Positions 180 to 22,100 of a stretch of DNA of 22,457 bases are shown here, piece after piece. Source of the stretch: a virus. The stretch is from positions 1-22,457 of the IMG/VR virus record IMGVR_UViG_3300020411_002472, one strand, 5' to 3'. Position 1 is the first letter of the stretch. The number at the start of each line of letters is the position of its first letter. The position numbers were made by a program, and so were the translations under genes. Under the pieces are notes generated by a model. It ran no database searches. It had not been told where the DNA came from and saw only the letters and a program-made list of their open reading frames with translations.

Positions 180-539
180 TTACTCTGGTTTTGCTGGAAT
201 TTTGTTACCATAAGGCATAGCACCTGATGGGTTAACAACATAACATTCAATAAAATAATCTTGATCTTCTAGGTCAGTTGATTGTGGGAACCACTCGTTT
301 GCTGTATCTATAGCACTAGTCTGGTTATCAAATTCATAGAAGGTATATCTTTCAGAGAATATCTCCCCGATCTCATCTATAGGTAAGAAATCCTCATAGT
401 ATGTCTTTACTGTAGCTTTCTTAGTATCACCTAGTGCCATCCATGTGGATGTATCGATGACTAAGATATGTTTATTCTTTTCTTTAGCGAAATAATGAAT
501 CAATTCATATAATCGCTGTGCGTTCATTGATACTAACAT
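180..539 (-). CDS. Small hypothetical phage protein (119 aa), coupled to the upstream gene
   Basis: The frame runs from ATG 539 to TAA 180. Its ATG overlaps the stop of the 332-residue gene by one base (TAATG) and is preceded by a strong Shine-Dalgarno AGGAGAGG at 551-544, so this start is well supported; Met5 is a weaker alternative. The protein is soluble and acidic, with a predicted helix-strand opening (MNAQRLYELIHYFA, then HILVID) and a Pro/Gly tail containing NPSG and YGNK. There is no signal peptide, membrane helix or recognisable catalytic motif. Overlap with a chaperone-like gene beside a giant adhesin suggests an accessory role in fibre assembly or a minor virion part, by context only. 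I do not recognise the family. Confidence 0.75.
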   Translation of the reverse strand: MLVSMNAQRLYELIHYFAKEKNKHILVIDTSTWMALGDTKKATVKTYYEDFLPIDEIGEIFSERYTFYEFDNQTSAIDTANEWFPQSTDLEDQDYFIECYVVNPSGAMPYGNKIPAKPE

Positions 540-1537
540 TATACCTCTCCTGCTTCAATTCTAGAAAGAAGGTCATCTAACCATGCTTGACCTTTCTCTT
601 CTACAGTTTCTGAAGTGATCATTTCACCATCGTTATAGTCACCGCCAAAATATTTAATTCTTTCTGCTTCAGTCTGGAACTTATATGGTGCTTGGTTGGC
701 AGTAATTTTTGTTCTGTAATTATCAATATCAATTCTACCAAACTTACCTTCACCCATAGCATCTCTGGTAATGGTTGTTAATACTAAATACACACTCATT
801 TTCTGAGCGAAGTATGATAAAGAGTTAGCTGATAGTTTCCAGAAATGATAGCTACTTTCAAGATAATCTTTATCATTACCCTGTTCACCATACAGTTCTA
901 GAGCTTTGTCAGACATACCATCTGCTTTTCTTTTTACATACTCGTCTGGTGTGATAGGGAAGATAACATCATATGCTGTCTCTGCTTCTTGTCCTTGTGC
1001 ATTTGTTTTGGGATTGTCTCTAATCCATTTTCTATATGCCAACCACATTGCCTTCTTCTCATCAGTTAGTCCATTATCTCCCAACTGTGTCCAATCACAA
1101 TCACCTAACAAGAACATTCTTACTAATTGAATCTTACTCCAACTAAGGATGTTTGCTTCTTCAATCTTTCTACGAACTGCTTCTTCATATTGTGCTTCTG
1201 TTATATCTTTAAACTCAAAGAATTGCTCTCTTAGCTGATCATACAGATTAGTAGGACTATACTCCTCTATACCAGTAGGATCAAACTCATATGATGTCCA
1301 TTTACTAGTCTTTGTCTTATGATCTCTTCTATACTTAGATCTCTGGATCAAATAAGTTCCATCTTCACGATACATAAACATCTCAAGTCTATCCTTATCA
1401 GAATCCCATAAGGGTCTAATGATAGGTGAGATCTTTGTATTCCAAAAATCATCATTTAATTGTTTTGAAACACCTCGATAGCTAATAACTCTATCAAAAG
1501 CGTTAAAAACTAATTGTGCAGTGCTAGATGACGCCAT
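539..1537 (-). CDS. Putative tail-fibre assembly chaperone-like protein (332 aa)
   Basis: The frame runs from ATG 1537 to TAA 539. Residues 143-175 carry LLGDCDWTQL, then D-x-x-LTDE, then W-x-x-YRKWIRD. This closely resembles the 'DWTQL...L(T/S)DE...W..YR..LRD' signature I know from phage tail-fibre assembly chaperones and related tail proteins. The rest (1-140, rich in Trp and charged residues, and 200-332) matches nothing I recognise, and the protein is longer than a typical chaperone of this type, so a virion role cannot be excluded. It follows the 1,928-residue adhesin-like gene directly, the usual place for a dedicated fibre chaperone. A GATAAATA element 21 nt upstream suggests its own late promoter. 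The Shine-Dalgarno is weak (AAGAACTGGTAAA before ATG). It is cytoplasmic by sequence: no signal peptide or membrane segment. Family call moderate; role inferred. Confidence 0.85.
   Translation of the reverse strand: MASSSTAQLVFNAFDRVISYRGVSKQLNDDFWNTKISPIIRPLWDSDKDRLEMFMYREDGTYLIQRSKYRRDHKTKTSKWTSYEFDPTGIEEYSPTNLYDQLREQFFEFKDITEAQYEEAVRRKIEEANILSWSKIQLVRMFLLGDCDWTQLGDNGLTDEKKAMWLAYRKWIRDNPKTNAQGQEAETAYDVIFPITPDEYVKRKADGMSDKALELYGEQGNDKDYLESSYHFWKLSANSLSYFAQKMSVYLVLTTITRDAMGEGKFGRIDIDNYRTKITANQAPYKFQTEAERIKYFGGDYNDGEMITSETVEEKGQAWLDDLLSRIEAGEV
544..551 (-). promoter_or_regulatory. Strong ribosome binding site for the 119-aa gene
   Basis: AGGAGAGG on the minus strand lies 4 nt before the ATG at 539, inside the last codons of the upstream gene. 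It is the best Shine-Dalgarno match among the junctions I checked. With the TAATG overlap it suggests both coupled and independent initiation. Confidence 0.7.
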
Positions 1538-1566: not shown

Positions 1567-4500
1567 TTATAATGCTTTAATCAAATACTTTGATCTATGG
1601 TACTTAGTGACCAGTGAAAGAGTTTCTTGAACTTGTGCAGTACCAGTAACAGATACTGGAGTTGATGCTGACAAATTAATTGTACCATCTGTAAATCTGA
1701 TGTTTGAATCTTCAGCACTAACTACTCTTTTTATTACATTAATACCATCTTCAGGTCCACAATCACCTTCATTACCAGGCAAAGTTGCATCTAACGTTGG
1801 AACAAATACTCTATCAGTATATGTGGCATATCTAACACCAAATAGTGCAATACCCCAGTTATCATTTTCATCATCTGGGTTGTCACCAGAATTGTCAGGT
1901 CTTGTTTGTCTTATAACCAAGTATATTCCATTAGCTCTTGCGTCACTATTCTCATCTAAAGGAATAGAATAATTAACCCATCCAGATGCAGATATACTTC
2001 CTGATTGTGCAATTGCTTGCAATGCTGTCTCTGATGTAGCATCTAGACCAGTTTTCCAATATACAACCAAATCTTCTTCTGGTGAATCACCACCATTAGA
2101 ATTATTACCTTTAATGATACCCATTGTAAGTTGGTCTACATTTGTTAAATTAAAAGGACCAATCTGAAGGAATCTATTTCCTGCACCCTCAAACCTAATA
2201 TTTCTATTTGATAAGTTATTTGAAATATTATTTGCAAGTGGGAAGTTAGAACCAGTTGAACCAACAACTTCTACAGCAGGAGAAGCAGAATGCCAAATAG
2301 CACCTAAAGGTCCAGTATTAGGGTTACCAGATATAAGATATCCTGGTTCAGGGAAATCTGGTACATCCCAATACCTACCTGCAGGTTCAGAAATACCTAC
2401 GACATTATCATCACCAGGTAATTGTCCATAACATGCAAGTGTAACTCTACCACCTTCACCATTGCTACCTCCACCTGCTCCACCATTACCACCTGAACCT
2501 ACATTCACAGCGAATGCAGTTTTAATATCATCTTCAGGACTTTCTCGTTGAATACTAAATTGCAAACCAGCACCTGCTCCACCACCACCTCCAGATGGAT
2601 TATTACCTTGAGCTTGGAAGTTTACAGTTAATGAAACATATCCATCTCCAGTAGATCCAGCAGATTCAGAGGCTGAAGTAACAAAACTACTATTGACAGC
2701 AGATCTACCAGCTTCACCACCATTTCCTGATCCAGTATTAGAATGATTAGCACCAGCTTCACCACCAGCACCACCGTTACCGCCTCCAGAAGGACCGCAG
2801 CCACCGCCGCCTCCTCCACCGCCACCAGCGGTACATCCTTTTGATCCACCATCACCACCACTAGTAAATCCGATTGGATTGACAATAGCTAAACCATTTG
2901 GGTTGGGTAATCCAGCACCACCAATCCAACATAAGTCTTGGACACCACCTGGAGCAGAACCATTATTATCTCCACCACCAGTACCGCCGCCACCGCCGCC
3001 ACCGCCAGCACCAGCATAAATGATACCTGCAGCACCTGATAGTGATGTGGAACCACCTCCACCTCCACCAGATCCACCGTTACCCCATGCACCTTGACCT
3101 GATGCACCACCATTAGAAGTACCAATACCACCTGGAACAGAAGGTTCATCAATAGATCCTTCTTGTTGGTTTAATCCTTCTGCACCTTGAAGACCAATTT
3201 CCCAAGATAATGTTCCTGGATTACCATTAATTGAACCAGTAACTCTTCTACCTGCAGATGCTGTACCACCAATATATCCAACACAATTAAATATACCATT
3301 TGGGGGACCATTACCACCTGAACCACCAGATATATCAAAGTTTACACTAGTGATCTGAGATCCCTCTGACGCATTAAAACCTGGAGTGTTGTTAACATTA
3401 TAACTACCAGTATTTCCACCAGAACCAGGAACAGTAAATGTAGTTGTTCCACCTGTACAATTATTTCTGGAAGTAAATATGTCTTGACCAGTATCAAGTC
3501 TTACACCTCTAAATCCAATAGAACATGGGTTATTTGCCCAAGAGTTATCACCATTAGCAGCAGCAACGTTTCTAACCCTAAATGTTATTTGATGCCAACC
3601 AACAGCAAGATTAGTTACTGTAAATACTTCATTTGGTGTCCAACAACTACCATCTCCTGGGTTACCTGAACTATTTGAAGCACTACCGAGTGTTGAACCA
3701 TCTGGAGCTCTCCAAATCATTTCAGAAAGACCATCAGATGCGAATGTAACTTGAACACCTTGAGTAAGAGTTGATCCAACTACTTCAAAACCAACACCAG
3801 CTTCTATCCACTGATCTACATAAGGATCTGAACCTCCTGTTGGAACAATTTTATAAATTCCATTTTGTAACAGCCAAGGACACCATACAGCAGCAGCACC
3901 AGCAGATATATCATTAACTCCTACTGGAAACCAATCTCTTGTTTGTATTAAAGGAATTTCTCCATCAGCAGTCCATGTATTAGTCCAACTATCAATAGTA
4001 GTATAAGTGCTGAATCCACCATTACCACCATATCCTTTACTAGTAAAAGGTAAAGAATTTCCACCAGCAGGTTGAGCACCATTATCAATTCCACCATTAA
4101 GACCATTATCTCCACTTACTGAGATATCAAAGCTAAATCTTGGATCAGCAAATAATTGAGCAGGAATAGAGTATGTTCCTCCTTGACCACCAGCACCACC
4201 ACCGTTTCCAGAGGTTCCTCCACCTCCACCACTAGCAATAATAGTATATGGTACTCCATCAACATTTAATGTGAGTTCTGTAGGGTTACCAGAATCTCCA
4301 TTTCCAGTGGAGCCACCTCCACCTCCTCCACCACCTTGCATCTGAACAACATATGATAATACATTTTCTCCACTAGCACTCGCAGCAACGTTAGCTGTAC
4401 CACTGTCATATGTCTCGTTATATCTTTCTTCTCCTTCACCTGGTTGAACAACAATAATTTCCTTACCACCAATAACAGTAGTATTATCAACAATCCAAAC

Positions 4501-7353
4501 TCTTGGTGTAGGAGTGACAGGAAATTCTTGAAAATATCCAGTAGAAATACTTGCTGTACCAATAGAACTAGATCCAACCTTAGTTGTTAATGCTTTAAAT
4601 ACTGATGCACTAAAACCATCAGCAATAATTTCATAATTACCATTCAATTGATCTGCTGCACCTGAAATAGCTACATTTTGTCCAATGGCAAATTCATGTA
4701 CACCAGGAAATATAACTGTTAATACTGATCCATTCGCAGATGCTGAAGTGAATGGAATAGCACCTGGTTCAGTAACCTTATAATTATAACATCCATCCCA
4801 TTCTCCTTCACCAGCATTACTAGTTAATCCAATCTTTGCAACACCAAAAGCATCATAAGCATTGGGTTGGAAGATTGATCCTGCAGGATCATTTAAAGTA
4901 CCACTAAGATTTTCACCTGAAGTAGAATCATATTCACCCACTGGGTTTGAACCAGTAACTGCACTAGCAGAAGTTTGCTGCATTTCAAAAGTAACTGGTT
5001 GAGCTGCAGCAGACCGATAATTTACTGGAATATCAATATATCTATTTTTCCATACAGCATATGATGCATCATATGCAGCATACCCAGTTGTTCCGTTAGC
5101 AATATTAAATGTTCCAGATGACTCCATTAATTCTACCCATGGAGTAGGAGTACCACTCTCAACATTTGGAGAACTGAATCTAATTCTTAAATTATCAGTA
5201 GTATCATTGACTCTTTCACCACCATTAGTATCATTACCACCTTTAGCTAAAACAAAGAATTGCCCATATCCTTCACAATTAAGACTTACAGAAGCTTCTC
5301 TTGTAGCTTGATGAGTAGTGAATGTGCTACTACCTGGTGTACCAAAAGCAAGATATTGCTGACCACTACCAGGACTGGTAAATCCTCCTGCTTCACCAAA
5401 ACCAGTTCCCCAGTTAATCAAAGCAGTTCCATTTAAAGTCCAAGTTAATGCTACATCATTTACATCATAATTCTTATCATTAACATTATTAGTTTGTACT
5501 CTCTCACCAATACCATCAACGTTTCCAAGTGTTGCAGTCTTTGGACTTAATGGTCTATATCCTAACAAACCATGTGAGTGTCCTCTTGTTTCAGCAGTAG
5601 CATTTGGAATAAAGTTATCAATGAAACCACGATATTTCAAATATGAAGTTGTAAATACATCAGCACCATTAGTAGCTGTACCTTGTGTTGTCTCATCTGG
5701 TTCACTGTGAAGTAATTGATGATTATGTGTTGGTGGTCTTGAAAAAATATAATCCTGAATAGGACCAACTGTATATTCCTTTTCACCAATTAAATATGGT
5801 GATATAAGTGTTTCAACATTAGTATATCCTGATGTTAATACATCACTAATTTGATAGAATTCAGCTGGATCTTCAATAACATCTGTACTAATATACCACT
5901 GACCTCCAGTATCACCAACTGTAATACTAGCAGCATTACCAGGTAAAGGAGTTCCAGCACCATCTACACCTTCACCAAATCCAAGTAACTTTTTTTCTCT
6001 ATAGTCTGGTACTCTAAATTTTCCTAATATGTATGGCAAATCTTGAATATTAAATGTCTTCCTAATTCTAATAGTTGGTTGAGTTGCTAAAGTGTTAATA
6101 ATTACATCTAAACTTCCTGCATTAGGATCAAAATTATCATCACCACCAACAACTATTAAATTATCTGTAAAATAAGGTGCTCTGTTATAGTCTGGAATTA
6201 ATTGTCCACTACCTGCTTGAAAATCGACATGAGTTACTAATTCCTGAGCATCTGTTAATATTGCTTTAACGTGAAGTCTATATGTATGTCTTTCTCCTGA
6301 TGGTGGTTGTGGTCCTGAATAACCATTGTTAACCCAATCAGGAGCAGAACCTAAAGATGTCTCTTCTACACTATTTTGTAGAACTGTTATTGAATTAAGT
6401 AATGATTGGTTAACAGTCAATCCAGTAACAACACTTGGAATGTTTTGAAGATGCCAATGCCTGAATGCATTTCCATTACCATCAACGATAGCTAAATCTT
6501 CTAATACTAATTCATATGTGTCAATAGCAAAATCTCCAGGCAGACCAGATAAGTTTGCCCAAGAAATAGCTATAGTATCATTATCTGCACCTGGATATTG
6601 TGTATATCCTGTTGGATAACCTGTTCCTGTTAAAGGATCGAATGTACCAGGATCTAAGGCAGGAATTGTACCATAGTTTGCTATTGGTAATACAGCACCA
6701 TCAACACTAGGGAGTAAAGATGTTGATGTTAAAGTCCAAGTAACTGCTCCACCTGGAGTTGATCCTCCACCACCAGTATTACTAGGATCATAAGTAAGAA
6801 GCATCCTATAAACATGAGTTCCAACAATAGCAGCACTAGCCTGATATGTATCAGAATATTCTAATCTGTATGCAGTATTCTCAACTACCTGTCCACCAGC
6901 AGTAGGATAATCACCAAGTTCGTCAAACGATATAGTAGCATTGTTAGGAACTACTCTCTCATAGCTATTAGTTCCTGCTATTGGTTTTGCGTAAATTTCT
7001 ACGAATACATTACTACCATCAACAAATGTTCTGTATACTGTACCAGGATCTCCAGATACATTTGATCGAATAGCATTATTGGTAATCTTTTCACTGTTTA
7101 ATGTGACATAATCATTACCAATCTTCTCATATAATAAAGGATAATCTTTAATATCATACTGTGCTCCATCACAGTACATAAAATTGCGGTAAGAAAAATT
7201 TGGATCCTCTCCAGCATTACCTTCACCAGTATTTGCTCCTGCAGGATCTGTCGAATAACTATCTACCAATACAGGTACAATAGATCCGATGGACATATAT
7301 GAACCTGATTTATCAGAATAAAAATTAGAGTAAGGATTCCTGTATTGTGCCAT
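1567..7353 (-). CDS. Giant adhesin-like tail fibre protein: collar-like N-terminus, PEBP-like domain, glycine-rich section (1,928 aa)
   Basis: The frame runs from ATG 7353 to TAA 1567; the ATG overlaps the TGA of the upstream gene (TGATG) and lacks a clear Shine-Dalgarno, so coupling is likely. Domains in order: a divergent collar-like start at 20-85 (GSIVPV, then FMYCDGAQYDIKDYPLLYEKIG), with a partner strand FRVPDYREKKLLGFG near 446-460; a PEBP/YbhB-like domain at 204-366; His-x-His motifs at 543/545 and 592/594; a beta-sandwich candidate at about 690-800; a short 'GxNVxISG...NGxY' unit near 890; nine glycine-rich clusters between about 1,000 and 1,640, with a lectin-like unit ending GWHQITFRVRN near 1,230-1,265 embedded; a second beta-sandwich candidate at about 1,690-1,850; and a C-terminus ending KYLIKAL. 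The last resembles the endings of the two upstream collar proteins. I infer a distal receptor-binding fibre. The PEBP part may bind a ligand or serve as scaffold. Confidence 0.9.
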   Translation of the reverse strand: MAQYRNPYSNFYSDKSGSYMSIGSIVPVLVDSYSTDPAGANTGEGNAGEDPNFSYRNFMYCDGAQYDIKDYPLLYEKIGNDYVTLNSEKITNNAIRSNVSGDPGTVYRTFVDGSNVFVEIYAKPIAGTNSYERVVPNNATISFDELGDYPTAGGQVVENTAYRLEYSDTYQASAAIVGTHVYRMLLTYDPSNTGGGGSTPGGAVTWTLTSTSLLPSVDGAVLPIANYGTIPALDPGTFDPLTGTGYPTGYTQYPGADNDTIAISWANLSGLPGDFAIDTYELVLEDLAIVDGNGNAFRHWHLQNIPSVVTGLTVNQSLLNSITVLQNSVEETSLGSAPDWVNNGYSGPQPPSGERHTYRLHVKAILTDAQELVTHVDFQAGSGQLIPDYNRAPYFTDNLIVVGGDDNFDPNAGSLDVIINTLATQPTIRIRKTFNIQDLPYILGKFRVPDYREKKLLGFGEGVDGAGTPLPGNAASITVGDTGGQWYISTDVIEDPAEFYQISDVLTSGYTNVETLISPYLIGEKEYTVGPIQDYIFSRPPTHNHQLLHSEPDETTQGTATNGADVFTTSYLKYRGFIDNFIPNATAETRGHSHGLLGYRPLSPKTATLGNVDGIGERVQTNNVNDKNYDVNDVALTWTLNGTALINWGTGFGEAGGFTSPGSGQQYLAFGTPGSSTFTTHQATREASVSLNCEGYGQFFVLAKGGNDTNGGERVNDTTDNLRIRFSSPNVESGTPTPWVELMESSGTFNIANGTTGYAAYDASYAVWKNRYIDIPVNYRSAAAQPVTFEMQQTSASAVTGSNPVGEYDSTSGENLSGTLNDPAGSIFQPNAYDAFGVAKIGLTSNAGEGEWDGCYNYKVTEPGAIPFTSASANGSVLTVIFPGVHEFAIGQNVAISGAADQLNGNYEIIADGFSASVFKALTTKVGSSSIGTASISTGYFQEFPVTPTPRVWIVDNTTVIGGKEIIVVQPGEGEERYNETYDSGTANVAASASGENVLSYVVQMQGGGGGGGGSTGNGDSGNPTELTLNVDGVPYTIIASGGGGGTSGNGGGAGGQGGTYSIPAQLFADPRFSFDISVSGDNGLNGGIDNGAQPAGGNSLPFTSKGYGGNGGFSTYTTIDSWTNTWTADGEIPLIQTRDWFPVGVNDISAGAAAVWCPWLLQNGIYKIVPTGGSDPYVDQWIEAGVGFEVVGSTLTQGVQVTFASDGLSEMIWRAPDGSTLGSASNSSGNPGDGSCWTPNEVFTVTNLAVGWHQITFRVRNVAAANGDNSWANNPCSIGFRGVRLDTGQDIFTSRNNCTGGTTTFTVPGSGGNTGSYNVNNTPGFNASEGSQITSVNFDISGGSGGNGPPNGIFNCVGYIGGTASAGRRVTGSINGNPGTLSWEIGLQGAEGLNQQEGSIDEPSVPGGIGTSNGGASGQGAWGNGGSGGGGGGSTSLSGAAGIIYAGAGGGGGGGGTGGGDNNGSAPGGVQDLCWIGGAGLPNPNGLAIVNPIGFTSGGDGGSKGCTAGGGGGGGGGCGPSGGGNGGAGGEAGANHSNTGSGNGGEAGRSAVNSSFVTSASESAGSTGDGYVSLTVNFQAQGNNPSGGGGGAGAGLQFSIQRESPEDDIKTAFAVNVGSGGNGGAGGGSNGEGGRVTLACYGQLPGDDNVVGISEPAGRYWDVPDFPEPGYLISGNPNTGPLGAIWHSASPAVEVVGSTGSNFPLANNISNNLSNRNIRFEGAGNRFLQIGPFNLTNVDQLTMGIIKGNNSNGGDSPEEDLVVYWKTGLDATSETALQAIAQSGSISASGWVNYSIPLDENSDARANGIYLVIRQTRPDNSGDNPDDENDNWGIALFGVRYATYTDRVFVPTLDATLPGNEGDCGPEDGINVIKRVVSAEDSNIRFTDGTINLSASTPVSVTGTAQVQETLSLVTKYHRSKYLIKAL
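1800..2270 (-). other. Possible reelin-like or jelly-roll beta-sandwich, copy 2
   Basis: It contains NRFLQIGPFNL, then DLVVYWKTG, GWVNYSIPL, YLVIRQTRP and NDNWGIALFGVRY. This is the same order of elements as the segment at 4960-5290, and the last resembles the 'D.WAIDDI' end of reelin subrepeats. A carbohydrate-binding role is plausible by position near the C-terminus but not shown. Confidence 0.4.
2445..4349 (-). repeat. Glycine-rich section, about nine poly-Gly clusters
   Basis: On the plus strand this appears as repeated ccacc/ccgcc triplets, locally more GC-rich than the surroundings. In the protein it gives runs of five to nine glycines separated by variable segments. Poly-Gly clusters are known in T-even gp38-type adhesins, where they pack as polyglycine-II helices and present variable loops. 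Several units here also look like 'strand, poly-Gly, strand' glycine-rich domains. The same triplets create long shadow reading frames in other frames. Confidence 0.75.
4960..5290 (-). other. Possible reelin-like or jelly-roll beta-sandwich, copy 1
   Basis: The segment contains DNLRIRFSS, then PWVELMESSG, then AVWKNRYIDIP and PVTFEMQQTS. The order 'x.L.. S..g..W..L ... W....i.iP ... ..f.. Q' recalls reelin subrepeats and related jelly-roll domains. The resemblance is weak and rests on pattern only; a second, similar segment lies at 1800-2270. Confidence 0.35.
6256..6744 (-). other. PEBP/YbhB-like domain within the adhesin (residues 204-366)
   Basis: The segment follows the order of the phosphatidylethanolamine-binding protein family: an opening WTLTSTSLL with DG and P..Y, then ISWANLSGLPG (the family's 'SW.g.P.g'), VLEDLAI where DPDAP is usual, FRHWHLQNIP (family 'HW...nIP'), and YSGPQPPSGERHTYRL (family 'GP.PP.G.HRY'). 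The anion-site His (about 299) and His356 are kept. The DPDxP loop is degraded to ED, so binding may differ. The fold call is fairly confident; ligand binding is unknown. Confidence 0.75.
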
Positions 7354-8726
7354 CAGATTTTAATTAGATACTCGGTTATAATAAATGGCTGTATGTATTT
7401 ATCTGCCTTCGGTTCAGTGTTTTTAGTGATTGTAATTTGGGATGTTAATCCACCAGAACCAGGAGCAAATGCTGCTCTTGTTCTCATTTGATATGTATGT
7501 GGTGTCTCAGCATCAAAATCTATTCTATGTCTATGCATTGCATCACTACCACGTTCACCTGTTAAAGTAGTTATGTTAGCTACACCACCTTCCCTAATAA
7601 CATAATAATCCTCATCAAGAACAGTAAATGGAAGGTTTGTTGTAGATTCACCATAAGTAGGACCATAGTTTGTTAACTGTGCTGAGTCAACAGTGAAACT
7701 ACCCTGTCCTCCATATCCACCAATACAGAATAGACCTAAGAAGAGTACACAATCACAATCTTGATACAATTCTGGTTCGTATGTGATATTACCTAAAGTG
7801 ACATTATCTCCTACGCTATTTGTACCAGCATTACAATCATCTCCAATAGCATCTCTAAAGTCCCAAGTTGTATTTTCCATTTCTGGACAGTAATCTCCTC
7901 CCTCTGGCCATAAACACATACTAGAAGATGTAAATCCTAAACAACCATTAAAACATGCACCCCAATACTGCATTCGGTTAGAACCCTTCCTTGTTGGAGT
8001 CTGATAAGCATCTAGTCCATTTACAGCATACTGAGACCATTGATAATAACATAATGGTTGTGCTGTATTTTCCCACCACTGACAAACATTCAATGAAGAT
8101 TTTGTTCTTTGATGATTCTTTTGTCTAGCAGAAAAGAAGTTTCCATTTTTATCCTTTTGTCTAGCTCTGAGAGTTTGCGATCTATGCATATGTGGTTGCC
8201 ATGCATTCTGCGGTACTTCATCACTAGATGTATATACACCAGTATCAAGTGTAAATCTTGGTTCTCCTCTCAAATCAATAGTTTGAGGAGGAATGTAAAA
8301 TTCACCAGTATATATTAATTCATATGGACTTGGAACGTTTTGTGCAACATTTAATCCGATACCAGATTTTTTAACATCCTCATTATTTTCATCTTGAACA
8401 ACAAGATCATTATACTGTCCAATATTAGCAGAGGTTGTAGCTCTGATATTTTTACATCTCAAATCTGGTAACTGAAATTGTTCGTCAGTAAGTGCCTGAC
8501 CAGCTTTTAAAAATTTAGTGGATAATCCAGTTCCTAAAACTGCAGCTAGTTCTGGATATTCTACAGCAAATAAAACTCTACCATCACATCTAAGATATCC
8601 TGCAGGAATTAATTCTTGATTACTAGGACCATTCGGATCATCTTCAGTCAACTCAACAGGGAACGTAATAATCGATCCCGTCATCGTTCCATGAATTGAT
8701 TTTTCTTTGGTGTAAAATGCTGGCAT
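7353..8726 (-). CDS. Tail-collar domain fibre protein with Cys-rich insert (457 aa)
   Basis: The frame runs from ATG 8726 to TGA 7353, starting one base after the stop of the previous gene (TAA A ATG); the nearest Shine-Dalgarno is a weak AGAG. Residues 15-95 show the phage tail-collar pattern: MTGSIITFP, IPAGYLRCDGR, EYPELAAVLG and FQLPDLR. Such domains occur at the ends of T4 gp12-like short fibres. His-x-His motifs lie at 179/181 and 398/400, and the protein ends PFIITEYLIKI. Its neighbour (8728-10134) has the same plan. Unusual is a Cys-rich block: ten of its twelve cysteines fall between residues 215 and 334 (for example GACFNGC and QDCDC), while the neighbour has one cysteine in total. 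Probably a trimeric fibre or pin; homotrimer and metal binding are inferred from T4 gp12 and gp37. Confidence 0.88.
   Translation of the reverse strand: MPAFYTKEKSIHGTMTGSIITFPVELTEDDPNGPSNQELIPAGYLRCDGRVLFAVEYPELAAVLGTGLSTKFLKAGQALTDEQFQLPDLRCKNIRATTSANIGQYNDLVVQDENNEDVKKSGIGLNVAQNVPSPYELIYTGEFYIPPQTIDLRGEPRFTLDTGVYTSSDEVPQNAWQPHMHRSQTLRARQKDKNGNFFSARQKNHQRTKSSLNVCQWWENTAQPLCYYQWSQYAVNGLDAYQTPTRKGSNRMQYWGACFNGCLGFTSSSMCLWPEGGDYCPEMENTTWDFRDAIGDDCNAGTNSVGDNVTLGNITYEPELYQDCDCVLFLGLFCIGGYGGQGSFTVDSAQLTNYGPTYGESTTNLPFTVLDEDYYVIREGGVANITTLTGERGSDAMHRHRIDFDAETPHTYQMRTRAAFAPGSGGLTSQITITKNTEPKADKYIQPFIITEYLIKI
7396..7403 (-). promoter_or_regulatory. Candidate T4-type late promoter GATAAATA before the adhesin gene
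   Basis: The octamer is identical to that at 1559-1566 and ends 42 nt before the ATG at 7353. It lies within the last codons of the 457-residue gene (in ADKYIQP), so coding constraint could explain it alone. Two identical matches at two large-gene starts make a promoter reasonable. Confidence 0.45.
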
Positions 8727-8727
8727 T

Positions 8728-10134
8728 TTAAAAAGCTCTGATAATGTATAGCATAGTTAATGAAGGAGTGTTATTATTAATTTGAACACTCAATGCTGTA
8801 TCTACAGATAATGGTGCAGTTGTACCAGTGGAAATATCATTTACCAAAATAGTAGATGGAACAGAAAGACTACCCCTTGCCATATTTACTTCCATTGCAT
8901 TATGACCATGAGATTTTAATGCATCATCTGCCCATTGTTCGCCATTATGATTTAGTGTGGTAGTATATGTATCTGTTACAGCTGTATTTATTGGTTGTTT
9001 CTCACCACCAAGGGCATCATAACTCATATCCTCAATATTTGTTGCTGGCATCTGATTACCTCTATGAAACTCTGGAATATCAACAGCAGAATAATAGTTT
9101 CTTTTATTATTATAATATCCAGCAGGGGGAAATGCACCAACATGAGATTGTGTTTGAATATTTGCTACCGCACGATTATCATCTTGATAGACATTTTGAT
9201 CACCACCAGGAGTTGCACTCCAACCTCTAAATTGAATATAAGGTCTAAGATCAATAATTCTAGGAGAATCTGGTATAGCAGGAACCAGTTCTAATTGAGC
9301 ATCAACAAATTGTCTGGCACTTCCATCAACCATAGTCATACCACCATCATTTTCATCATACCATGTAATATCTCTCCAACCTGGTCTAAATGTATGTGCT
9401 TGAGAATCATTACTCCTATGACCAATAGGAGAAATAGCAATATAATTTGGGCTCTCATCTTTTAGTCCACTACCAGGTAAGAACTCCATCATAGGTTGAC
9501 CAGTTGGAGTTGCAGACCAAAACTGATCAAAATCAGAATCACTAGCTGGTCTGTGACTATGTTCTGGAGTATGTTCAATACCTAATTTTCTCGGAATAAC
9601 ATATGCTGTGTCAAAGTATATCGGGTCTTCCATTGTTATACCAGTAATTCTACCAGCTAATGTAGAAGATGGTTGCATAGTAAATGTTATATTTACATCA
9701 GCATCAAGAAGAACAGGTGGTTGTACAGCATCAGGACCATTACGACCAATATATTGTCCAATATGTAAGAGATCAGTAGATGGAATTCTAGATCCCTCGA
9801 TATCAATCAACGATAATTGATTTAGATCTGGTAATCCAAATTTATCAACATGATATTCAGGATTTTTATTATATGGAAAATCATTAACTAATCCAAAATT
9901 CACTCCTATCTCTTCATTACTACCTGTTTCTGGAAATGGTCCATATTGATTTCCTAATGTTGCTGCTAGAAGAGGATAATCAGCAGCATCTAATACAGCA
10001 TTAGCTAAACTACAGATAATCCAACCTTTTGGAATATCCTCCATGCGATCTCCTTGACCCGTACCGCCCGTCCAAGGTATAATAGTACCTATTGGGGCGA
10101 TCTTACTTGCTTTTACTCTATTATAGAATGTCAT
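8728..10134 (-). CDS. Tail-collar domain fibre protein, gp12-like (468 aa)
   Basis: The frame runs from ATG 10134 to TAA 8728, three bases after the giant gene's stop, with AGAGG at 10147-10143 spaced 8 nt from the ATG; this start is secure. Residues 13-105 give a clear collar domain: IAPIGTIIPWTG, DIPKGWIIC, DYPLLAATLGNQYG and FGLPDLN. His-x-His motifs lie at 192/194 (EHSHR) and 409/411 (SHGHN), and the C-terminus is LYIIRAF. The distance from the last motif His to the C-terminus is 57 residues, the same as in the next gene, which supports common descent. In T4, gp12 forms the short tail fibres and its His residues bind metal on the trimer axis. By analogy this is a baseplate-attached fibre. 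A cyanophage short-fibre or tail-pin name would be a guess. Confidence 0.88.
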   Translation of the reverse strand: MTFYNRVKASKIAPIGTIIPWTGGTGQGDRMEDIPKGWIICSLANAVLDAADYPLLAATLGNQYGPFPETGSNEEIGVNFGLVNDFPYNKNPEYHVDKFGLPDLNQLSLIDIEGSRIPSTDLLHIGQYIGRNGPDAVQPPVLLDADVNITFTMQPSSTLAGRITGITMEDPIYFDTAYVIPRKLGIEHTPEHSHRPASDSDFDQFWSATPTGQPMMEFLPGSGLKDESPNYIAISPIGHRSNDSQAHTFRPGWRDITWYDENDGGMTMVDGSARQFVDAQLELVPAIPDSPRIIDLRPYIQFRGWSATPGGDQNVYQDDNRAVANIQTQSHVGAFPPAGYYNNKRNYYSAVDIPEFHRGNQMPATNIEDMSYDALGGEKQPINTAVTDTYTTTLNHNGEQWADDALKSHGHNAMEVNMARGSLSVPSTILVNDISTGTTAPLSVDTALSVQINNNTPSLTMLYIIRAF

Positions 10135-10137
10135 TGA

Positions 10138-13100
10138 TTAGACCTCTTTTAACCACCATCCTTGTACGGAGGAAGAAACGATAGTGCCTTGTGAATCTGT
10201 TGCTCCTAGGTAAACCAGAGTAAATCCAGCATTTGCTGTTTGTACTACCAATTCACCAGAATTATATGGAGTTGTACCACCCAATCCAATTGTAGTTCCT
10301 CCAGCATCTCCTTGTACTTTAGTATTTGGAGTTAATGCTCTAACAATTAGCATTGTGTCGTAACTTAAGTTACCACCAACTTCAACGAATCTTACTTCAT
10401 CTCCTGTAATTGGATTTTCAGGTAAGTAACAGATCAAGTTAGTCTGATTACTTACATTAGCAAAGTATGTGACGTTAGCTTCTAGGTTTAGATCAGCAGC
10501 GTCAGATCCAGAAGAGATATAACGTGCATGTCTACCACCAGTCTTGGTGTAGTAGTTACTAATACCAAAAGCATCAATAGAATTATCTCTATTAATGATA
10601 AAGGAATCAGCACCATTAATTCCTAAGTTATTTAACTGGAATTGTGGTGTCTTAGATGGTATTTCAGATGCTAAACCAACAATTTTTAATGAATTGCCGA
10701 TTTCTGCATCACCATCGTTATCAACTTTAAATGTTACTTGATTTCCAATAAGTAGAACATCTTCTGGACCTGAACCAGAGTAAAGTTTGAAATCACCTCT
10801 ACCAAGAACACCAGCGTCAAAGTAGATAGTACCAGAGTGATCTGCGTGACCATCATCATTAATAATTTGTAGGATGTTAGTTTGACCAACAGAATCCTTC
10901 ATGGTGAATATACCACCATACATTGTCATATCCTTATTAAGGATTAGATCACCATTTCTGTGTGTAGTAGAACCATCAAGGATAGTTTCATCCATGGTAG
11001 TTGTATGAACCTTACCTGCTAGTCCACCATTTACATAGAATATTTCATTAGAATCATTTACCTTATCATATAAACGGAACCAGTTTAAATAATCAAACTT
11101 AGTTTGTGCAATTCTACCATTGTCAAGAATGACAGAACAGAAATCAGCACCACCACGTAGTCTTGTTTGAATGTCAACTAGGTTAGATGTCTCAGAGTGT
11201 TTAAGAATTCTCTGTACTGTTGTTGTAGTAGCTAGATAATCGGTTAATGCATTAGCAGTTGTTCCTTCCTTAGCTGGTAGACATCTTAGAAGTTTACCTG
11301 CTACATCAACTGCAGCAACTTCCATGATCTCCCATTTGGGTTGTGTACCACCACCACTAGGTGAGTAAACACCACCATTTGCAATCGCAGTTACATCACC
11401 AACAACAACTAGATCACCTTCAGCAAATCTACCAGTTCCTTCACCAATAGAGTTAACTGTTAGATAAACAGAACCAGCAATGGATCCAGTAGCAGCATCT
11501 ATAGATAAAGTGGTATTAGGACCATTACCCTGTATAACCTGAGGATCTAACCAATAAGAGTAAACTCTAATATCAGATTCATTACCAGAATATCTCGCAG
11601 TTGTAGTAGCAATAGCTTCAACATCAGGAAGAACTCTCTCAATATCTAATCTTCTATACTGATTACCAATTTCCATGGTAGCAGCACATGTATCAAAGTA
11701 TAGAGTGTTCTGATCATTACCGTTTTGAATGATAAACTCTTCATTCCTAACAACCGTGAAGCTAATATTAGTTAATACAGCATTAAGAACAATTGGTTTA
11801 GTAAGTTTGATTTGATTAGCATCAATCTCCTCAATTCTAGTATCACCAAACATTGTTGCGGTAACAGTACCAGTGAACCTGACAGTATCACCAATTTGAA
11901 CCTTAGCAATGTCAGCAGGACTGACGTTAGTAATATATCTGGTTATTTCCTCATTAGCATTTGGTGTTAGAGTACCAATGATTGTTCCTCTGTTAATAGT
12001 TCCACAACCACCTTCAAGTCTTAATTGACCTTCAAGAATAGTGTCACCACCAATGTAAGTATCACCAGTTACAGAATCAATAGTGAATACATTACCAGCG
12101 TCACCTAAAGAACAATCTTTAGAGACTGTGAACTTCTGAACTTCAGCAGATAATGGTGTAACAACCTTAATTACTTCACCAAAGTCATCTATACCATCAC
12201 CAGCTGGTACACCATCATCACGACCAATAACAACATAATCTGTGTTTGTTAAATTACCACCAAACTCAGCAAGATATACATTGTCCTGAGGACCATTACC
12301 ATCAAGTGCCTGTTCTGTCCATGTGGCATCAAACTGAACATTAACTCTGTAGATAGGTGTATTATCTGGATGAGTGTCAAGAACAGTAGTGAATGTACCA
12401 ATAGGTTGACGCTTAACCTTTACAAAGTAAGGTGATACGTTAATTCTTGTTAATTCAAGAATCTGTACAAGTTCAGGATGCTCAGTAGCACTATTAACAG
12501 GACTATCAATTAAGAGATAATCGTTAGTAGCAAAGTATGGATCACCGTTAGCTTTAACTGGTGAATTTGCTAAAGGTAGATAATATTCATCACCAGTTAA
12601 TGCAGGTAAATCCTGTGGTTCAACCACTGGGCTTCCACCAAGACCAGTTTCTGCATTCTGGAAGAATGAACTACCCCATGGTCCATTACCAGCAGTATCA
12701 ATTTCATTGTATCCTTCATCAGTAGGAGCTACAACGATAACATTCAGAATGTCAACATTCTTATTGAATAATGTTTGACTGATAACACCATCATCATGAG
12801 GATTGATTGTAGAACCAAGTTGTCCTCTTTCACCTAAGAATGAGAAGGAAGCAACACCACCACATAATGTGATATTACTATCAAACTGTGCAGATGCAAT
12901 AACTTTTAATTGGTTATTGACTGTAGTTGTACCACCTTGACCTGCAATATTAATCTCAGATGCATTAGTTGCAAAGTTAAGGATTGAAGGACCACCAGTA
13001 TTAGATAAGAAATCAACTTGTGATGCTTGTGACTTAAGTGATACAGTGTCACCAATTCCTCTACGGAATCCGAGCCACATATCACCATCAACTCTGAAGT

Positions 13101-16100
13101 TTCTAGTCTTAACTTTAGTGTAAGATAGATCTTCGTTGGTATTGGTGTATGCACCACCAATCTCTACCTTAGAGATCTCTGAAGTAAGAGTCTCAGGAAC
13201 AGTACCTATAAAGATGTTACTGTGTAAAGAAGCAGTACCAATATTGATGAAGTGATCACCAGTTACATTATTGAATAGGTTAACTGTCTGAGTAGCAGTT
13301 CTACTATTACCAATATTAATAAATTGTGCATCACCAGCAATATTGATTGTACCTTCAAATGAACTATCAGTTACAAGATTAAATGTACCCGTTGTCTGTG
13401 ATGTTCTGATTTCAGCAGTTGTACCGTCATCACCATTGACTTCGATATCATGCTCAAACTTAGCATCATCAGTAAATCTAGATGTACCGTCAACAACGAA
13501 TGCTCTATCAAGTTGAGAATTATCAACGTTAATACCAACACGACCATTGTTTGTAGTAGCTACACGGAAGACTGCTTCATCAGTTACAGTAGAACTATCA
13601 CCACCAACTACAAATGCATCATCAATAGCAGTCTTATCACGATCAGCATATAAATCATGCCCTAAGAAATCACCAGTTTTTCTACCACTAATGTATGCAT
13701 TACCAACAACATCAAGGTTTGCACGAGGATCAGTGTCAATAGAAGTAAATGCAGTTTTATATGCTTCCTTAGCAGCACGAACAACAGTGTTGATACCTAA
13801 CTTGTAGTCACCAATAGTCTCTGTTTCAGTTCTAAGTGCCTCAGCACCAATGACTCCAAGTTCCTTAAAGTTAGAGTTAGAGAACTCAATAGTAGGAACA
13901 TCAGCACCTACTGCAGTTCCAGAGATAATAGTCTCCCAAGGTTGTGAATCCTGTGGAATTAGGTCAATAACTTGGAAATGACAGTAGTTATTAGATGGAT
14001 TAAATGCATCACCAGGTTTGTTGTATACTTGCCATGTTAGATTTAATCTAGGATCATAGTAGAAGTTCTTGATTCTAATCTGTGATGCAGTTGTGATACC
14101 AATATCAGTATTTGATAGAGCAATGCCAGTATTAAAGTCTCTGAATGAAAGTTTAACAACGTTTGTTCCATCAAATACAATATTATCAATACTATCAGCA
14201 CCAATCTGAGTAAAGTAGTTAGAGAATATCCATGCAAGAGATCCACTCTTACCAACTTCAGATCCCTTGAGTAGCATATCGCCAGGTACAGGGGATACAC
14301 CACCGTAGCTAATAGTTTGAGATACATCAATTGTGGTTCCACCTTGAGCAATCAATGGAGATTGATTAGGAGTAGCATTAGATGCAATACCAGAAACGGT
14401 ATGAGTCTGCATCATATATGCTTGACCATTTCCTCTAGCATTAAATCCAAAGATAGCAGACTGTATTCTGTTCTTACTAATTCTTATATCACCCTCAGTA
14501 GGAGGTGCGAATGAAGTTCTATCTAATTGCTGATCCTGTTCTAATTGTGTTACAGGATCAATAGAAGATACATTAGAACGAATGATTAATGCATCACGTT
14601 GCTGTGTTAGATCAGCATCCTGAATTGCAATAGTAATTGGTGATTCAAATGTATTGACTAGCTCACCATTACCACCAACAACTGTAATATTCTGGTTGAA
14701 TGTTACAGGAGTATCGAAGGTAGTAACTAGACCTCCAATTGTATCATCCTCATCTCCATCATCTACAAGACGTGCAGAATCGATGAATGTTTCTTCACCT
14801 GTGATAGCATTGATTCTTCTGTTACCAATATACAAGTCACCTTGTGAATTGATACCTGTGTAGAATACAATACCAGCATCTTGCTTCTTACTCTGTGCGT
14901 AGAAGTCTTCTTCAGGTGTTAATACAACTTCCTGTCTAGCTGGTAGACCAGTTGAGTAGTTACCTGGACCAAAACCAAGATATTCAAATGTATGGTTACC
15001 TGCACGAGCAATAGATGGTCGTCTAAGTTCAACATAGTATTTCTGATCTACAAGAACTGTGCTGTCACCAGAAATAGAGATTGTACGATCTTCAGATCCA
15101 GAGGTTGCATTACCAGGTTGTGCCTGAATTGCATTTTTACCAGTGTAAGAATTAAACAAGAATGCAGGTTGTTCTGTAAGGTCTGCAACCATTTCTCTGG
15201 TTGTAGAATTCTTAAAGTCGTTAACTGTAACTAAACCATGTGTATAGTTGTCAGCAGCAGAATATGCTTGTGGTGGATCAATTAATCCAGCATAGTAATC
15301 TTTCTCTTCTTGTGATGTACCAGACTTCTTAAACCAGAGAGGATCATTTCTATAGTTTAGAGGATATAGCTTACTAACTGGTTGAGAGAACTTAAACTTC
15401 TTGAAGTTATTAGTTACACCAGCACCAGTTGGGAATGGAGAAACGTTACCACGAAGTGCAGTTAGATAGTAAATACCATCTTGCTGACCTGCGATACGTT
15501 TCTGTAGTGTCTCGTAACCGAAGATGTAGAATGTATCTTCAATAATTCCTGCATCCTCAACACTATCAACATAGTATTCAACACCAGCATCATCTTGAAT
15601 ACGATCACCTGGTGTGATAGTATAAACGTTTGCGCCGTTTTGCTTGTAAAAATACTGCGGATTATTTTTTGCGATTTGCTGTTTTAGAGGAAGCGATTTG
15701 CCCATGTCCTGATCCTCAAGCATGTCAGCAAAAACATTACCTTGAGTAAATCTTGTGTTAGCATACTCACTGTACTCTAGATCACCACCACGAATATTCT
15801 TGATGATAATGTAATGATTACCATTTACAGTGTAATATGCATGAACGTTAGCTAAACCAGAAGAATTACCAGCAAAACTAATAGCATTAGGAGATCCTGA
15901 AGTATTATCTACCTTACTGGTTACAAAGTTACCACCCTGAGGAGAAGTAATCTTAACTGTAGTAAATGTCTCATTTCTCAATCCAGGGAAGTTTCTAGTA
16001 TCAACAGCATGGTCATATAGATTCAACTCAAGATACTTGATATTAGGATCTAGAACATCTTCTACATAACGACCAGATTGAATAGTTGCCTGAATACCAG

Positions 16101-19100
16101 AGCTAAATCTTGCGAATGCTCTATACTCAATACCTGCTCCAGTTTGATCTTTCTTAAATGGATCATATTGTGCATCTACATTAAGAGTATTAATCCTAAA
16201 GTCATCTGCATCGTATCCAATATATTCTCCTGCTTGTACTGGGTTCTCAAAACGAGCACCATATACTGTACCAACAACAGGTTTTAATAGAACCTTCTGA
16301 GGTACTAGCTTACGTGTGTCATCCGTTCTTGTCTTAAGAACAAATCCATTAATAGGATCTCTTGCGTTCTCAAGATACTTAGGAATGACCATACGAATCT
16401 TGTATGTTCTGTCATCTGCCTCACGATTATCTTCTAGACGCTCATACCACGCATCAGTGGTTCTTTGTCTATCAGCATAATCTGTCTCATTAAGTCTCCA
16501 GAAGATATTATTTGTAGGATCACTAACACCAGTTACCTGATCCTTACACTGGATGTACCACTTACCATTACTTGCAGTAGCATCAGTGAAACTAGGATCG
16601 AAACGCATTGGCGAACGACGCTTGTTAGCATAAACATTAAAGTCTAATCCTTCCTGACCAGATGCAAATGTAATTGGATTTACATCATTAATTGCATCAG
16701 CATGTGTCTTATGAAGTGTGAATGTCTTATTGTTCTGATAACGAGTGAAGAATTCAATGTTAGGATTTATTCTGCCATAATTAGAATCGCTAGTGTCAGT
16801 AACAGCAACCTGAGAATCATTAGCATATGTCTGTGCTACTAGAGGTAGAACTCCACCCTCAACAGCTCTAATGAATGCCTTTTGTGATGTAGTACCAGCA
16901 TTAGGAATATCAAAGATGTTAGATACTGTTGTTTCAATACCAGCATAAACTGAGTCGCTAAAGGAACCAGTATAAGCATGTAGATCATACTTGTCATCAA
17001 GAACGAATTGATAAAGATCAATCTCAACATCCTTATCGATGCTGTCAGTCTCAGATGAATAGATGTAGATACCAGATGCTGCATTCTCTCTAGAGGTTGC
17101 AAGCATCAATCTAGTCTGATCACTACCATCGAAGAATGATGTACCACCATAGTTCTCAGGTTGTGTAACTCTACCTGGTGCAATTACATAGTATGTTCTG
17201 TTAGTCTCAAATCCATTAGGTAGTCTAATAAGACGCTTATCAACATCAACATACTTACCTGTGACTTGATCAAAGCGAGGACGTGGAACCAATCTAACTG
17301 GTGTACCAGTTTCAAAGTCATGTGGGTTAGAAGGACCAGCACCAGAGATGTCAATAGTAAATACTGTAGCTCTAGATGCAAGAAGTGCAGTGTTAACTGT
17401 CTGTTCTGATCTTACAACTGTTCCTAAACCACTGTTAATAATAGTAGTGATGTTACCAACTAATGTTTCGATTGCATTAGCAGTACCAGAACACTCTCTG
17501 TTTGTGGATGATACTGTAGTGTCAGCAATAATATCAGGACCTTCTGATTCAGGACCAACAGTTACAGTATTTGGTAATGTGTCTGCCCAGATACCTTTTT
17601 CATATACAAAGTATAATTCAGTTGTAGTGCTGTTCTGTAAAGCATTGACTGTGTTACCTTCACTTAGTCTAGAACCATTAACACCAAGTTCAATCTGTGT
17701 ATTACTAATAATGTTCTTGACATATGTACCAGCAGGGATATTAGATACTACCTGAGTAGCACCATCCTGTAATAGTCCATTAACATATGCAGGATTAACT
17801 GGATCAGTGTCATCATATTCCTTGACACTCATACCAATGATGATGCCACGAGTATCGTTAACATCAACGATTGCACTACCAGCAGTTGTTGAACAATTGA
17901 ATGCAAGAACATCAAAGTTCCTCATAGCTGCAGTTGCTATCTGTCCAACATAGTTCCATGCATCTAATGTTTCTGTCTTCTCACCTTGAATATACTCTAG
18001 GTTGTTACCAACATAGTATGCTTCACCAGCTTGGATACTATTAAGGTTACCACCGAGTCTAAGGTCATTAACGATAGCATCAACGATGTAAGTAACATCA
18101 CGGAAACACTTGGATGCTTCGTTATTAATTGTGAAGTCACCTGTGTTAAGAGGAGGTAGACCAGCAAGTGTACCACCATTGATTGCATCATTGAGAATAT
18201 CAAATAATGTCTCAATAGATGCACGAACGTTAGCACAATCCCACTCACCATTGTTTAGAGGTGGTAGATTGTTTAAGTTACCTTCACTAAGTGAATTACA
18301 TGCAATGTCAACCAATGCGTTAACAGTTGCAAGAACATCAGAACAGTTACCATCTGCATATGCAGTAGGTCTGTACTTACCAGATGCTCTAGGATATGCA
18401 TGTGTAAGAGTATTCTGATCTTTAGTACACTTAAAGACGAGAGATTCATCCTTAAGTTTAACGCTAGTACCAATAGCTAAACTATGAGCACCAATCGTTA
18501 GAGCAATAGATCCAGTTGCAGGATCATATACTGCGTTAGATACGTTATGCTCAACTAGAGGAGATGCACCAACGTTAATTGTAATTGAATGTGAAGTTAC
18601 AGCAGTTGGGTTAACGTTTGCACCAGCAACAGGATCAGTTCCAACACGAGGATATGTCTTAGTGGTTGTATCTCTACCCATGTCACATGTGAATGTGAGT
18701 GAGTTATCATCGAGAGATATCTGATCACTAGTGGTTACACCATGTGCAGATCCAAAGTATAGAGTTAGAGCACCAGTTGCAGCATCGTATGTTGCATTAG
18801 TTGGTGTTAATGGACTACCGTTAACTACGTTAACAGAATTTGCAGATGCACTTACAAATGTATGAGCATAAGCACCACCAGATACTACAGCACCAGCAGT
18901 TGCACCAATGAATGTGTGTGGATATTGATCTTGAGATGCAGATGCACCAACGTTAAGTGTAATAGAAGTTGCAGTTGCACTAACAATATTAAGTGCCTTG
19001 TTCCATGCAGGGTCAGCATTGTCTTGTGTTGTTCTAGTTACACCATCAAGGTTACCAACACCAGCATCAGTTCCGATTGCCTGTATGATGATGTCCATCA

Positions 19101-22100
19101 ATGTGTCAACAGCAGCTACTGCTGAACCACACTTAGGTAGTAGTTCATCCTCATCCCAATCAGTTACGATTGTAGAATCAATCTTCTGAGTTAGAGTGTT
19201 GCCAGTAGAAACACTAACTGTTTCATTCTTGACAACCTGCATTGCAATACTCTTAGCTTCTTGGAATACCTTCGCTACTTCATCTCTTTCTACATCTTGA
19301 ATGATCTGTGGATATGTCTTACCATTAAAGTCATTGGTGATGTAACCCTTAGCAACATCATATGTCTTATAGTTACCACCAAACTTAACATCCCACATTA
19401 CCTCACGTAGAACATCATATACATCATCTAAACAATCTTGTTCTGTATTTCCAGCAGAAGGAGTGTATGCAGGATATGCTGCCTTCATCCTTAAGTATGC
19501 TTCCTTAGCAATAAATTCTTTATTGTCAAGAACCATGTCATGTGCATCACATTCAATATTTCCTACAATTGGAGGATCACCTGTTTGATCTAGTGTGATA
19601 TTAAGATCACGATCATAGTATGTGTTGGTCAATGCACGTTGCATTAATTCTTCAGCACGTTTAAATGCACTGATTGCAGGAGTAACTTCCTTAGTTACAT
19701 CTAAACCATTTGCAAGTAGCTGATTACCTTGGAAGTATTCCTTAGTTGCAGCAATAGTAAATTCATTACCACCAAACCAAAGGTCTTGTGCAACAGCATC
19801 AACAACAATACCAAGGTCTCTACGACACTTAGCTTCACCTGTTAAGAACGTTCCAGTGTTAGCAGGTTGATTCCAGATACCACCTGTGATGTTACCAGCA
19901 GTGATAGCATCAGTAACGATAGTACCAAGAGTTACGATTGCTGACTGAACATCAGCACATGCACCTGAACTAGTTCTAGGTTCAATTGTGCTTGATGTAG
20001 TTGTAACAGCATTAACTGTTGCTCCTACAAATGTATGGTTGTAATCACCACCAGTCTTAACAGCACCAGGAGTTGCTGATACAAAGATATGATTATATGA
20101 ACCACCAGACTGTACAGCAGCAACAGATGTACCACCTGCCCAGTTGTGTGTGGTTGTATCAGATGAGATACCAACGTTAACTGTGATTGTGGTAGCAGAT
20201 GTACCGATAACAGTCAATGCTTGGTCGTATGCTCTGTCACGCTTAGCTTTGATGCCATTGATAGTACCAGATACAAATATATGAGATGTTGTATTTGTTG
20301 GAGTTGTACCCTGAAGGATATTAACTTCAAATGTATTTGCAGTTACGTTATCAATCTTAATCCATTCTCCACTTACAGGGTCTGTTGAACGTGGATAAGC
20401 ATGTTGTGTTTGATTACTATCCTCAGCACATGTGAAGGTTAGTGAGTCATCATCAAACTTAACGAAGTCTCCGTTCTGGAATCCATGATTGCTAGTAGTA
20501 GTAATCTTAAGAAGACCAGTTGCTGCATTATATGTTGTTCCTGCACCTGCAGAAGCAGTATCAATTGCATTTCTAGGATAAGTCTTAACAGTAGTGTTAT
20601 TATCACCGTTGTGATCACAGGTGAATGATAACTTATCATCACCAATCTTAATTCTTGCGTTAGACTTAGTAATGCAGTTTGTAGCAGCAGAAACAAATGT
20701 ATGAGTGCTACCTACGTTAGCTTCACCAACATTAACATCGAATGTTGTAGCAGTTGCATTAAAAATAGTTAACCACTTACCTCTTACTGGGTCAGTAGCA
20801 CGTGGGTATGTTCCTTGATTTCCACCAGGAATATTAGCGTTAGCAATACCAACGTTAACTGAAATTGTTGTAGCAGTTACAGCAGTAATTGCCAATGCTT
20901 GTCCAGATGCAGGGTCGGTTGCTCTTGGATATGAATGATTACTTGCGTTATTATCAGCAGCACATGTGAATGTTACAGCATCGTCTGCAATAGTAACTGT
21001 GTTTGAAGTTGTAAGACTGTGTGCTCCAATTGTTAATTCTAGAACACCAGTTGCAGGATCATATGTTGTACCTGTAGCAGCAGTATAGTTACCACCTAAG
21101 TCATCAAGAAGACCATTTGGAGATCCTTGTACAAATGTGTGTGCACCCATAGGAGCATCACAACTGAATACTAATGAATCATCAGCAATCTTAATTTCAT
21201 CATCGTTCTCAAATGCACCTTCACCAGCAGTATGAGTAAATGTCAATACACCACTGATAGGATCATATGCAACACTGGTAGGTGTAAACTGTGTTGGAGC
21301 AGGAATACTATGAGCACCAACTGTTAATACCAATTCACCTGTTGTAGGTGTGTATGATGCATCAGTTACGTCATGGTTAACAATAGGTGTTTTACCTACA
21401 TCAACAGTAATTGATGTTGCTGTTACTGCAATAATTGGTAGAGCAGTATTGTATGCTGGATCAGAAACTCTTGGATAAGTATGCTCTGTTGCATGACCAT
21501 CCATATCACAAGTAAATGTCAATGAACCAGGTTCAAGGAAGATACTTTGTAGAGTAGTGTAGCTATGAGCACCGATTGTTAGTTCCAGTGTACCATCTGT
21601 ACCAGAGTAAGAAGCACCAGTTACATTCTTTGCTACAATAGGAGAAGCACCAACGTTAACATCAAACTGATCTGCATTCTTATTAGAAACTGTCAACCAA
21701 ACATTAGCTGCTGGATCTGTTTCACGAGGATATGTCTTCCATCCAGTTACTGAACCAACGTTAACTGTAATTGTTGTACCAGTTGCAGATATAATTGGAA
21801 GAGACTGATTATATACAGGGTCAGTAGTTCTTGGATATGTGTGAGTAGTTTGATTTTGATCCTTAGCACAAGTAAATGCTAGAGAATTTGCTGCAATAGT
21901 AATTGTATCAGCAGATGTATAGCTATGAGCACCAATTGTTAATTCTAGAACACCAGTTGTAGGTGTATATGCTGCGTTAGTTACGTCTTTTGCATCACTA
22001 CCATTAACTGTTACTGCACCAGATGCTGTTCCACCTACCCATGTATGTGGAGAACCAGTACCCATGTCACAAGTAAATGTTAATGAGTTAGGTACAATCT

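Follow-up and report, generated by a model that had tools for sequence, protein, structure and literature searches.

A predicted PEBP-fold domain with a broken polar site, nested in the tail-collar domain of a short-tail-fiber-like phage protein

Gene neighborhood of the carrier protein

The window, that is, the whole stretch of DNA analyzed here, comes from IMG/VR as a viral record 22,457 bases long, and its minus strand encodes, in this order, a 4091-aa protein, two collar/short-tail-fiber proteins, a 1928-aa protein (P0001) and a tail assembly chaperone. P0001 (1567..7353, minus strand), the carrier of the PEBP-fold domain described below, is a virion structural or short-tail-fiber-like protein that matches phrog_30655 (virion structural protein, 1.2e-69) and phrog_4924 (short tail fiber, 6.2e-17) in PHROGs. 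Its syntenic counterparts and orthologs are annotated as 'putative short tail fibre' in phage S-RSM4 and as 'virion structural protein' in S-WAM2, and the collar/fiber neighbors are shared as well. The 332-aa chaperone gene (539..1537, minus strand; phrog_4697, 9.6e-37) adjoins the fiber gene in the same order as in S-WAM2. The remaining genes encode a tail-collar protein of 457 aa (7353..8726, minus strand; PF07484, 29.8 bits; phrog_4714, tail collar), a short tail fiber protein of 468 aa (8728..10134, minus strand; phrog_4591, 4.3e-55) with a full-length homolog in S-RSM4, and the giant 4091-aa short-tail-fiber-module protein (10138..22413, minus strand; phrog_4527), of which the C-terminal 1620 aa are 44% identical to S-WAM2. 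In the N-terminal half of this giant protein, a module of the TYPR..DP / HTFVSAT type recurs many times.

P0001 shares its collar halves and an HxH motif with the gp12-type collar proteins of cyanophages (S-RSM4 CAR63408, S-WAM2 YP_009324193 and S-PM2 gp12) and, with the first two, also the glycine-rich distal part and the gene order. This homology and gene order link it to the gp12-like short tail fibers, and the collar domain itself is recognized by PF07484. Judged from its sequence, the carrier is thus a collar-bearing, short-tail-fiber-like protein, and its presence in the virion is predicted.

Two HxH motifs lie downstream of the collar on the minus strand, THNH and HSH, at 5715-5727 and at about 5577; the former does not vary among the aligned relatives and recalls the metal-binding histidines of T4-type short fibers. 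The glycine-rich distal fiber region, delimited by sequence and by identity per region, occupies residues ~1020-1650 (2404..4296, minus strand), and its long glycine-rich stretches may resemble polyglycine-type phage adhesins.

Identification of the PEBP-fold domain

A preliminary description of this DNA had placed a PEBP/YbhB-like domain at codons 204-366 of the fiber protein (6744..6256, minus strand). The reading frame and residue numbering are right, and the family motif order is present, with SW..P, HW..NIP and GPQPPSGERHTY all found. A search with the PEBP family profile, PF01161, matched the whole of P0001 with 35.6 bits (E 1.4e-8) and the domain alone with 40.5 bits, above the cut-off of 24; the match spans residues 262-371 and ends at profile position 107 of 135. 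In the AlphaFold model, the canonical C-terminal part of PEBP is replaced by a beta strand that returns to the collar. PF01161 also matched each of the 10 relatives tested, and some distant carriers fell under its cut-off (L053, 18.5 bits; L066, 21.5 bits) or gave no match (L062). A profile of the relatives, compared with PDB sequences, retrieved PEBP entries only (YbcL at 2.3e-4, YbhB and HP0218), and the A1 profile matches the PEBP-fold domain with 345 bits.

Structure prediction gave the same identification. The domain modeled alone has a mean pLDDT of 76.6; the model of residues 1-551 is confident over residues 60-450, and within residues 200-397 its values are mostly about 77-97, with a dip to 63. 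In Foldseek searches with these two separate models, all structure matches at E<=1e-3 were PEBP chains (7/7 and 10/10), namely, Rv2140c, YbcL, YbhB, CT736 and HP0218. A structure search of BFVD was unusable, as all its matches were long and multi-domain and had a very high rmsd (A0A6S4P7W4 being the best). Profile and predicted fold both make the domain a homolog of the PEBP family. Its proper extent, set by PF01161, the A1 profile, AlphaFold and Foldseek, is residues ~200-397 (6163..6756, minus strand); the identity of the domain and its place within a fiber protein stand, and its length had been somewhat underestimated.

A chance resemblance, in which an Ig-like or other beta-sandwich fiber domain mimics the PEBP motifs, had to be weighed, given that Ig-like beta domains are common in fibers, that the score against NCBIfam TIGR00481 (YbhB/YbcL), 41.9 bits, is under the strict cut-off of 57.75, and that the TM-scores of the PEBP structure matches are moderate (0.50-0.67 by target). 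Against these points stand the passed Pfam cut-off, the matches in every relative tested and the exclusive retrieval of PEBP structures by both models. We consider such mimicry very improbable and dismissed it.

Nested insertion into the tail-collar domain

The preliminary description had missed that a tail-collar domain surrounds the PEBP domain as an insert. The first half of the collar (residues 52-82; 7108..7200, minus strand) matches PF07484 with 26.4 bits on its own, and the second half (residues 443-460, KFRVPDYREKKLLGFGEG; 5974..6027, minus strand) was located by alignment with S-RSM4 and S-WAM2. When the halves were rejoined in silico, taking the second part from around residues 438-470, this artificial test sequence scored 34 bits against PF07484 (cut-off 24). 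Two layers separate the halves in P0001. The first is a beta-rich middle domain (residues 86-186; 6796..7098, minus strand), delimited by the L077-L082 profile and by the AlphaFold model, in which its pLDDT is mostly about 85-92. The second, which includes the PEBP-fold domain, spans residues ~187-421 (6091..6795, minus strand) and corresponds to an alignment gap in relatives that lack PEBP.

These relatives define the insertion site. S-RSM4-type proteins have a continuous collar, in which 37-41 residues separate CDG from FxVPD and the site is empty, and in S-WAM2 an unrelated insert of about 120 residues occupies the same place. Six loci (L077-L082) have the middle domain and lack the PEBP layer; their profile aligns with window residues 1-186 and then with 422-470, and skips 187-421, which therefore marks the PEBP layer. 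The layer itself is present in 40 loci found via the second collar half (L037-L076) and in two from a wider survey (L146 and L148), so that 42 collar-survey loci and the window carry PEBP. As an aside, the six middle-domain loci offer a ready-made intermediate of the insertion series.

Origin and distribution

In a tree built from collar-region columns, with the PEBP layer excluded, all 35 carriers used fell on one side of a single branch (support 100/99; 200/200 bootstrap trees), and the PEBP-lacking L077-L082 were the next branches beside them. Because the carriers form one clade, a single acquisition of the PEBP domain is the simplest reading of these sequences.

A tblastn search with the domain against 50,697 phage records gave no match at 1e-3, and a search with residues 1-551 at E<=1 gave only collar parts besides two weak matches (E 0.1 and 0.9); the former, MT835538 from human feces, is also matched by a generic YbhB-like consensus that served as a search probe only. 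Whole genomes of S-RSM4 and S-WAM2 contain zero PF01161 matches. A small number of phage records, H40-H46 among them, contain stand-alone YbhB-like genes of the same family; these are apparently separate small ORFs, one of them in a transduced bacterial bio locus and none in a related phage. Among the papers searched, none links PEBP with cyanophages or with tail fibers.

All carriers are metagenome or MAG contigs. In the genome collections, three carrier loci are filed in marine MAGs (L164, L165 and L166) assigned to unlike phyla (Gammaproteobacteria, Proteobacteria and Euryarchaeota); the contigs are more likely mis-binned phage contigs than evidence of hosts. The phage relatives hint at a possible cyanobacterial host; psbA was searched for on the 12 longest carrier contigs, which are fragments, and was not found on them.

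Erosion of the ancestral polar site

Five polar residues are nearly invariant in PEBP proteins (D71, D73, H87, H118 and R119 in FT numbering), and multiple replacements among them are known in two groups only, including the mitoribosomal proteins L35/L38, which have a new role (PMC8793217); anion binding has been said to depend essentially on the DPDxP and GxHR motifs (PMC7901119). We compared these positions across 44 aligned carriers including the window, with one contig represented twice (as L071 and L145) and with the FT numbering of the carriers resting on HMMER alignments. Neither member of the salt bridge between D73 and the GxHR Arg is retained: the D73 equivalent is found in 0/44 copies, and the R119 equivalent is Arg in 0/44 and Thr in the window. 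The rim residues are patchy, with the D71 equivalent being D in 31/44 and N in 13/44, the H87 equivalent being H in 16/44 and otherwise L, N, Q, C or I, and the H118 equivalent being H in 32/44. Between two and all five of these residues are lost, depending on the copy, and the full rim trio (D71, H87 and H118) survives in 6/29 non-redundant copies.

The window's copy is among these six. Alignment places D286 (6496..6498, minus strand) at the rim Asp (FT D71 / PEBP1 D70), within the altered DPDxP loop EDLAIV, as the preliminary description had noted of this loop; H299 (6457..6459, minus strand) is the rim His equivalent (FT H87), and H356 and T357 (6283..6288, minus strand) are the equivalents of FT H118 and FT R119 in the residue set of PMC8793217. 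The anion pocket thus retains D286, H299 and H356, and also Y358, and has lost D73 and R119. Scaffold positions are held far more tightly: W105, G152, P153, Q154 and P155 (domain numbering) and others are invariant, and the loop WVNNGYSGPQP is nearly so. Because D73 and R119 are always lost and the rim is patchy while these scaffold positions do not change, the ancestral anion site is free of family-wide constraint, a state compatible with some ligand binding, and the window's copy might conceivably still bind something. As the polar set that defines the functional family (DPDxP, GxHR) is broken here, the domain is, on this residue-level comparison, best classed as a derivative of the PEBP fold whose site no longer holds together, rather than as a working PEBP.

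The same data bear on the classical PEBP function that had been proposed for the fiber-borne copy, namely, binding of phospholipid head groups or phosphate groups via the ancestral anion site. The significant PEBP match and the rim trio of the window's copy would fit this function, but no copy has either of the two motifs said to be required for anion binding intact, and many relatives carry substitutions among the rim residues. We therefore regard the proposal as improbable; the scaffold role that had been named as its alternative fits better.

Selection and the role of the domain

Pairwise dN/dS for the PEBP part is about 0.15-0.44; hence, purifying selection maintains the domain. Between distant relatives, identity is 38-60% in the PEBP domain and 44-65% in the N-terminal module, and it falls to 17-66% over residues 552-1000, which, like the glycine-rich region, are less conserved than the PEBP domain in most comparisons. 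The PEBP domain thus evolves alongside the conserved N-terminal module and not with the variable distal fiber. Because its identity tracks that of the N-terminal module and the distal parts are lower, we infer that host-specific variation lies mainly elsewhere in the fiber.

We consider it moderately probable that the PEBP fold has been exapted to decorate the collar structurally and does not act as a phosphate sensor. An ancestor of marine T4-like phages related to S-WAM2 and S-RSM4 would have captured a PEBP/YbhB-type domain once, inserted in the tail-collar loop of a gp12/short-tail-fiber-like protein, and the module would have stayed folded as its inherited polar site was lost. It may now project as a decoration or spacer from the collar, which is presumably trimeric and was modeled by AlphaFold as a monomer, or, alternatively, it may help hold the fiber against the baseplate or neighboring fibers; host recognition would then fall chiefly to the distal parts, which vary more. 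The location of the domain in the particle, its trimer state and its function are here inferred. We count in favor of decoration the empty site, the intermediate with the middle domain only, the single clade of carriers, the purifying selection and the universal loss of D73 and R119. Three observations pull the other way: the near-invariant WVNNGYSGPQP loop could be a functional surface and not only core, the full Asp-His-His rim is present in several copies including the window's, and a variable rim in a conserved domain could reflect changing ligand specificity.

The last of these leads to a different explanation, in which the domain is a ligand-binding module of the fiber whose pocket has been re-specialized for a sugar, a phosphorylated glycan or another host-surface group, with the rim changes reflecting different hosts. 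The four pocket residues retained in the window's copy, the at least 11 letter changes at the H87 position on the tree next to an invariant W105 (domain numbering), the fusion of YbhB domains elsewhere to carbohydrate-metabolism modules (PMC8793217) and the general role of fiber proteins in host recognition all speak for it. However, D73 and R119 are gone from all copies, the rim His has become Leu or Ile in many, and the domain varies about as much as the N-terminal module and less than the distal fiber. This explanation is possible but doubtful, and slightly more doubtful still is its fullest form, that a marine phage lineage has made a PEBP/YbhB domain of cellular origin serve as a new module for receptor binding, with the old cavity, altered in chemistry, reading a host-surface group.

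Comparison with other PEBP-fold proteins

The phage domain shares its fold, motif order, and W and GxP..P scaffold positions with bacterial PEBP proteins (YbhB, 1fjj, and YbcL, 1fux, of E. coli; Rv2140c, 4beg, of M. tuberculosis), but the bacterial proteins stand alone and belong to a family that keeps the nearly invariant Asp/Asp/His/His/Arg, whereas the phage domain is nested in a fiber, carries a long loop behind its first strands and is without the profile's C-terminal part. Mitoribosomal L35/L38 (PMC8793217) offer a parallel, as a PEBP fold with a broken polar site used in a large assembly; the assembly is a different one and the case independent, and the two are likened by description. 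With the fiber domain, the lineages that break the almost universal PEBP polar set would apparently number three, and it helps separate the role of the polar residues from that of the fold. It also provides a traceable capture of a cellular domain by a phage fiber, with the empty site, the intermediate and the single gain visible in relatives, and identifies the collar loop of T4-like marine phages as an insertion hotspot for domains.

In some carriers, a further domain, about 140-150 residues long, precedes or follows the PEBP layer. Extra domains of the same cassette occur in L070, L072-L076 and L048 (about residues 165-300), and an extra domain follows the PEBP domain in L062, L069, L071, L146 and L148. 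That of L070 weakly matches a galactose-binding-like profile, PF22633, with 22.1 bits against a cut-off of 27.8.
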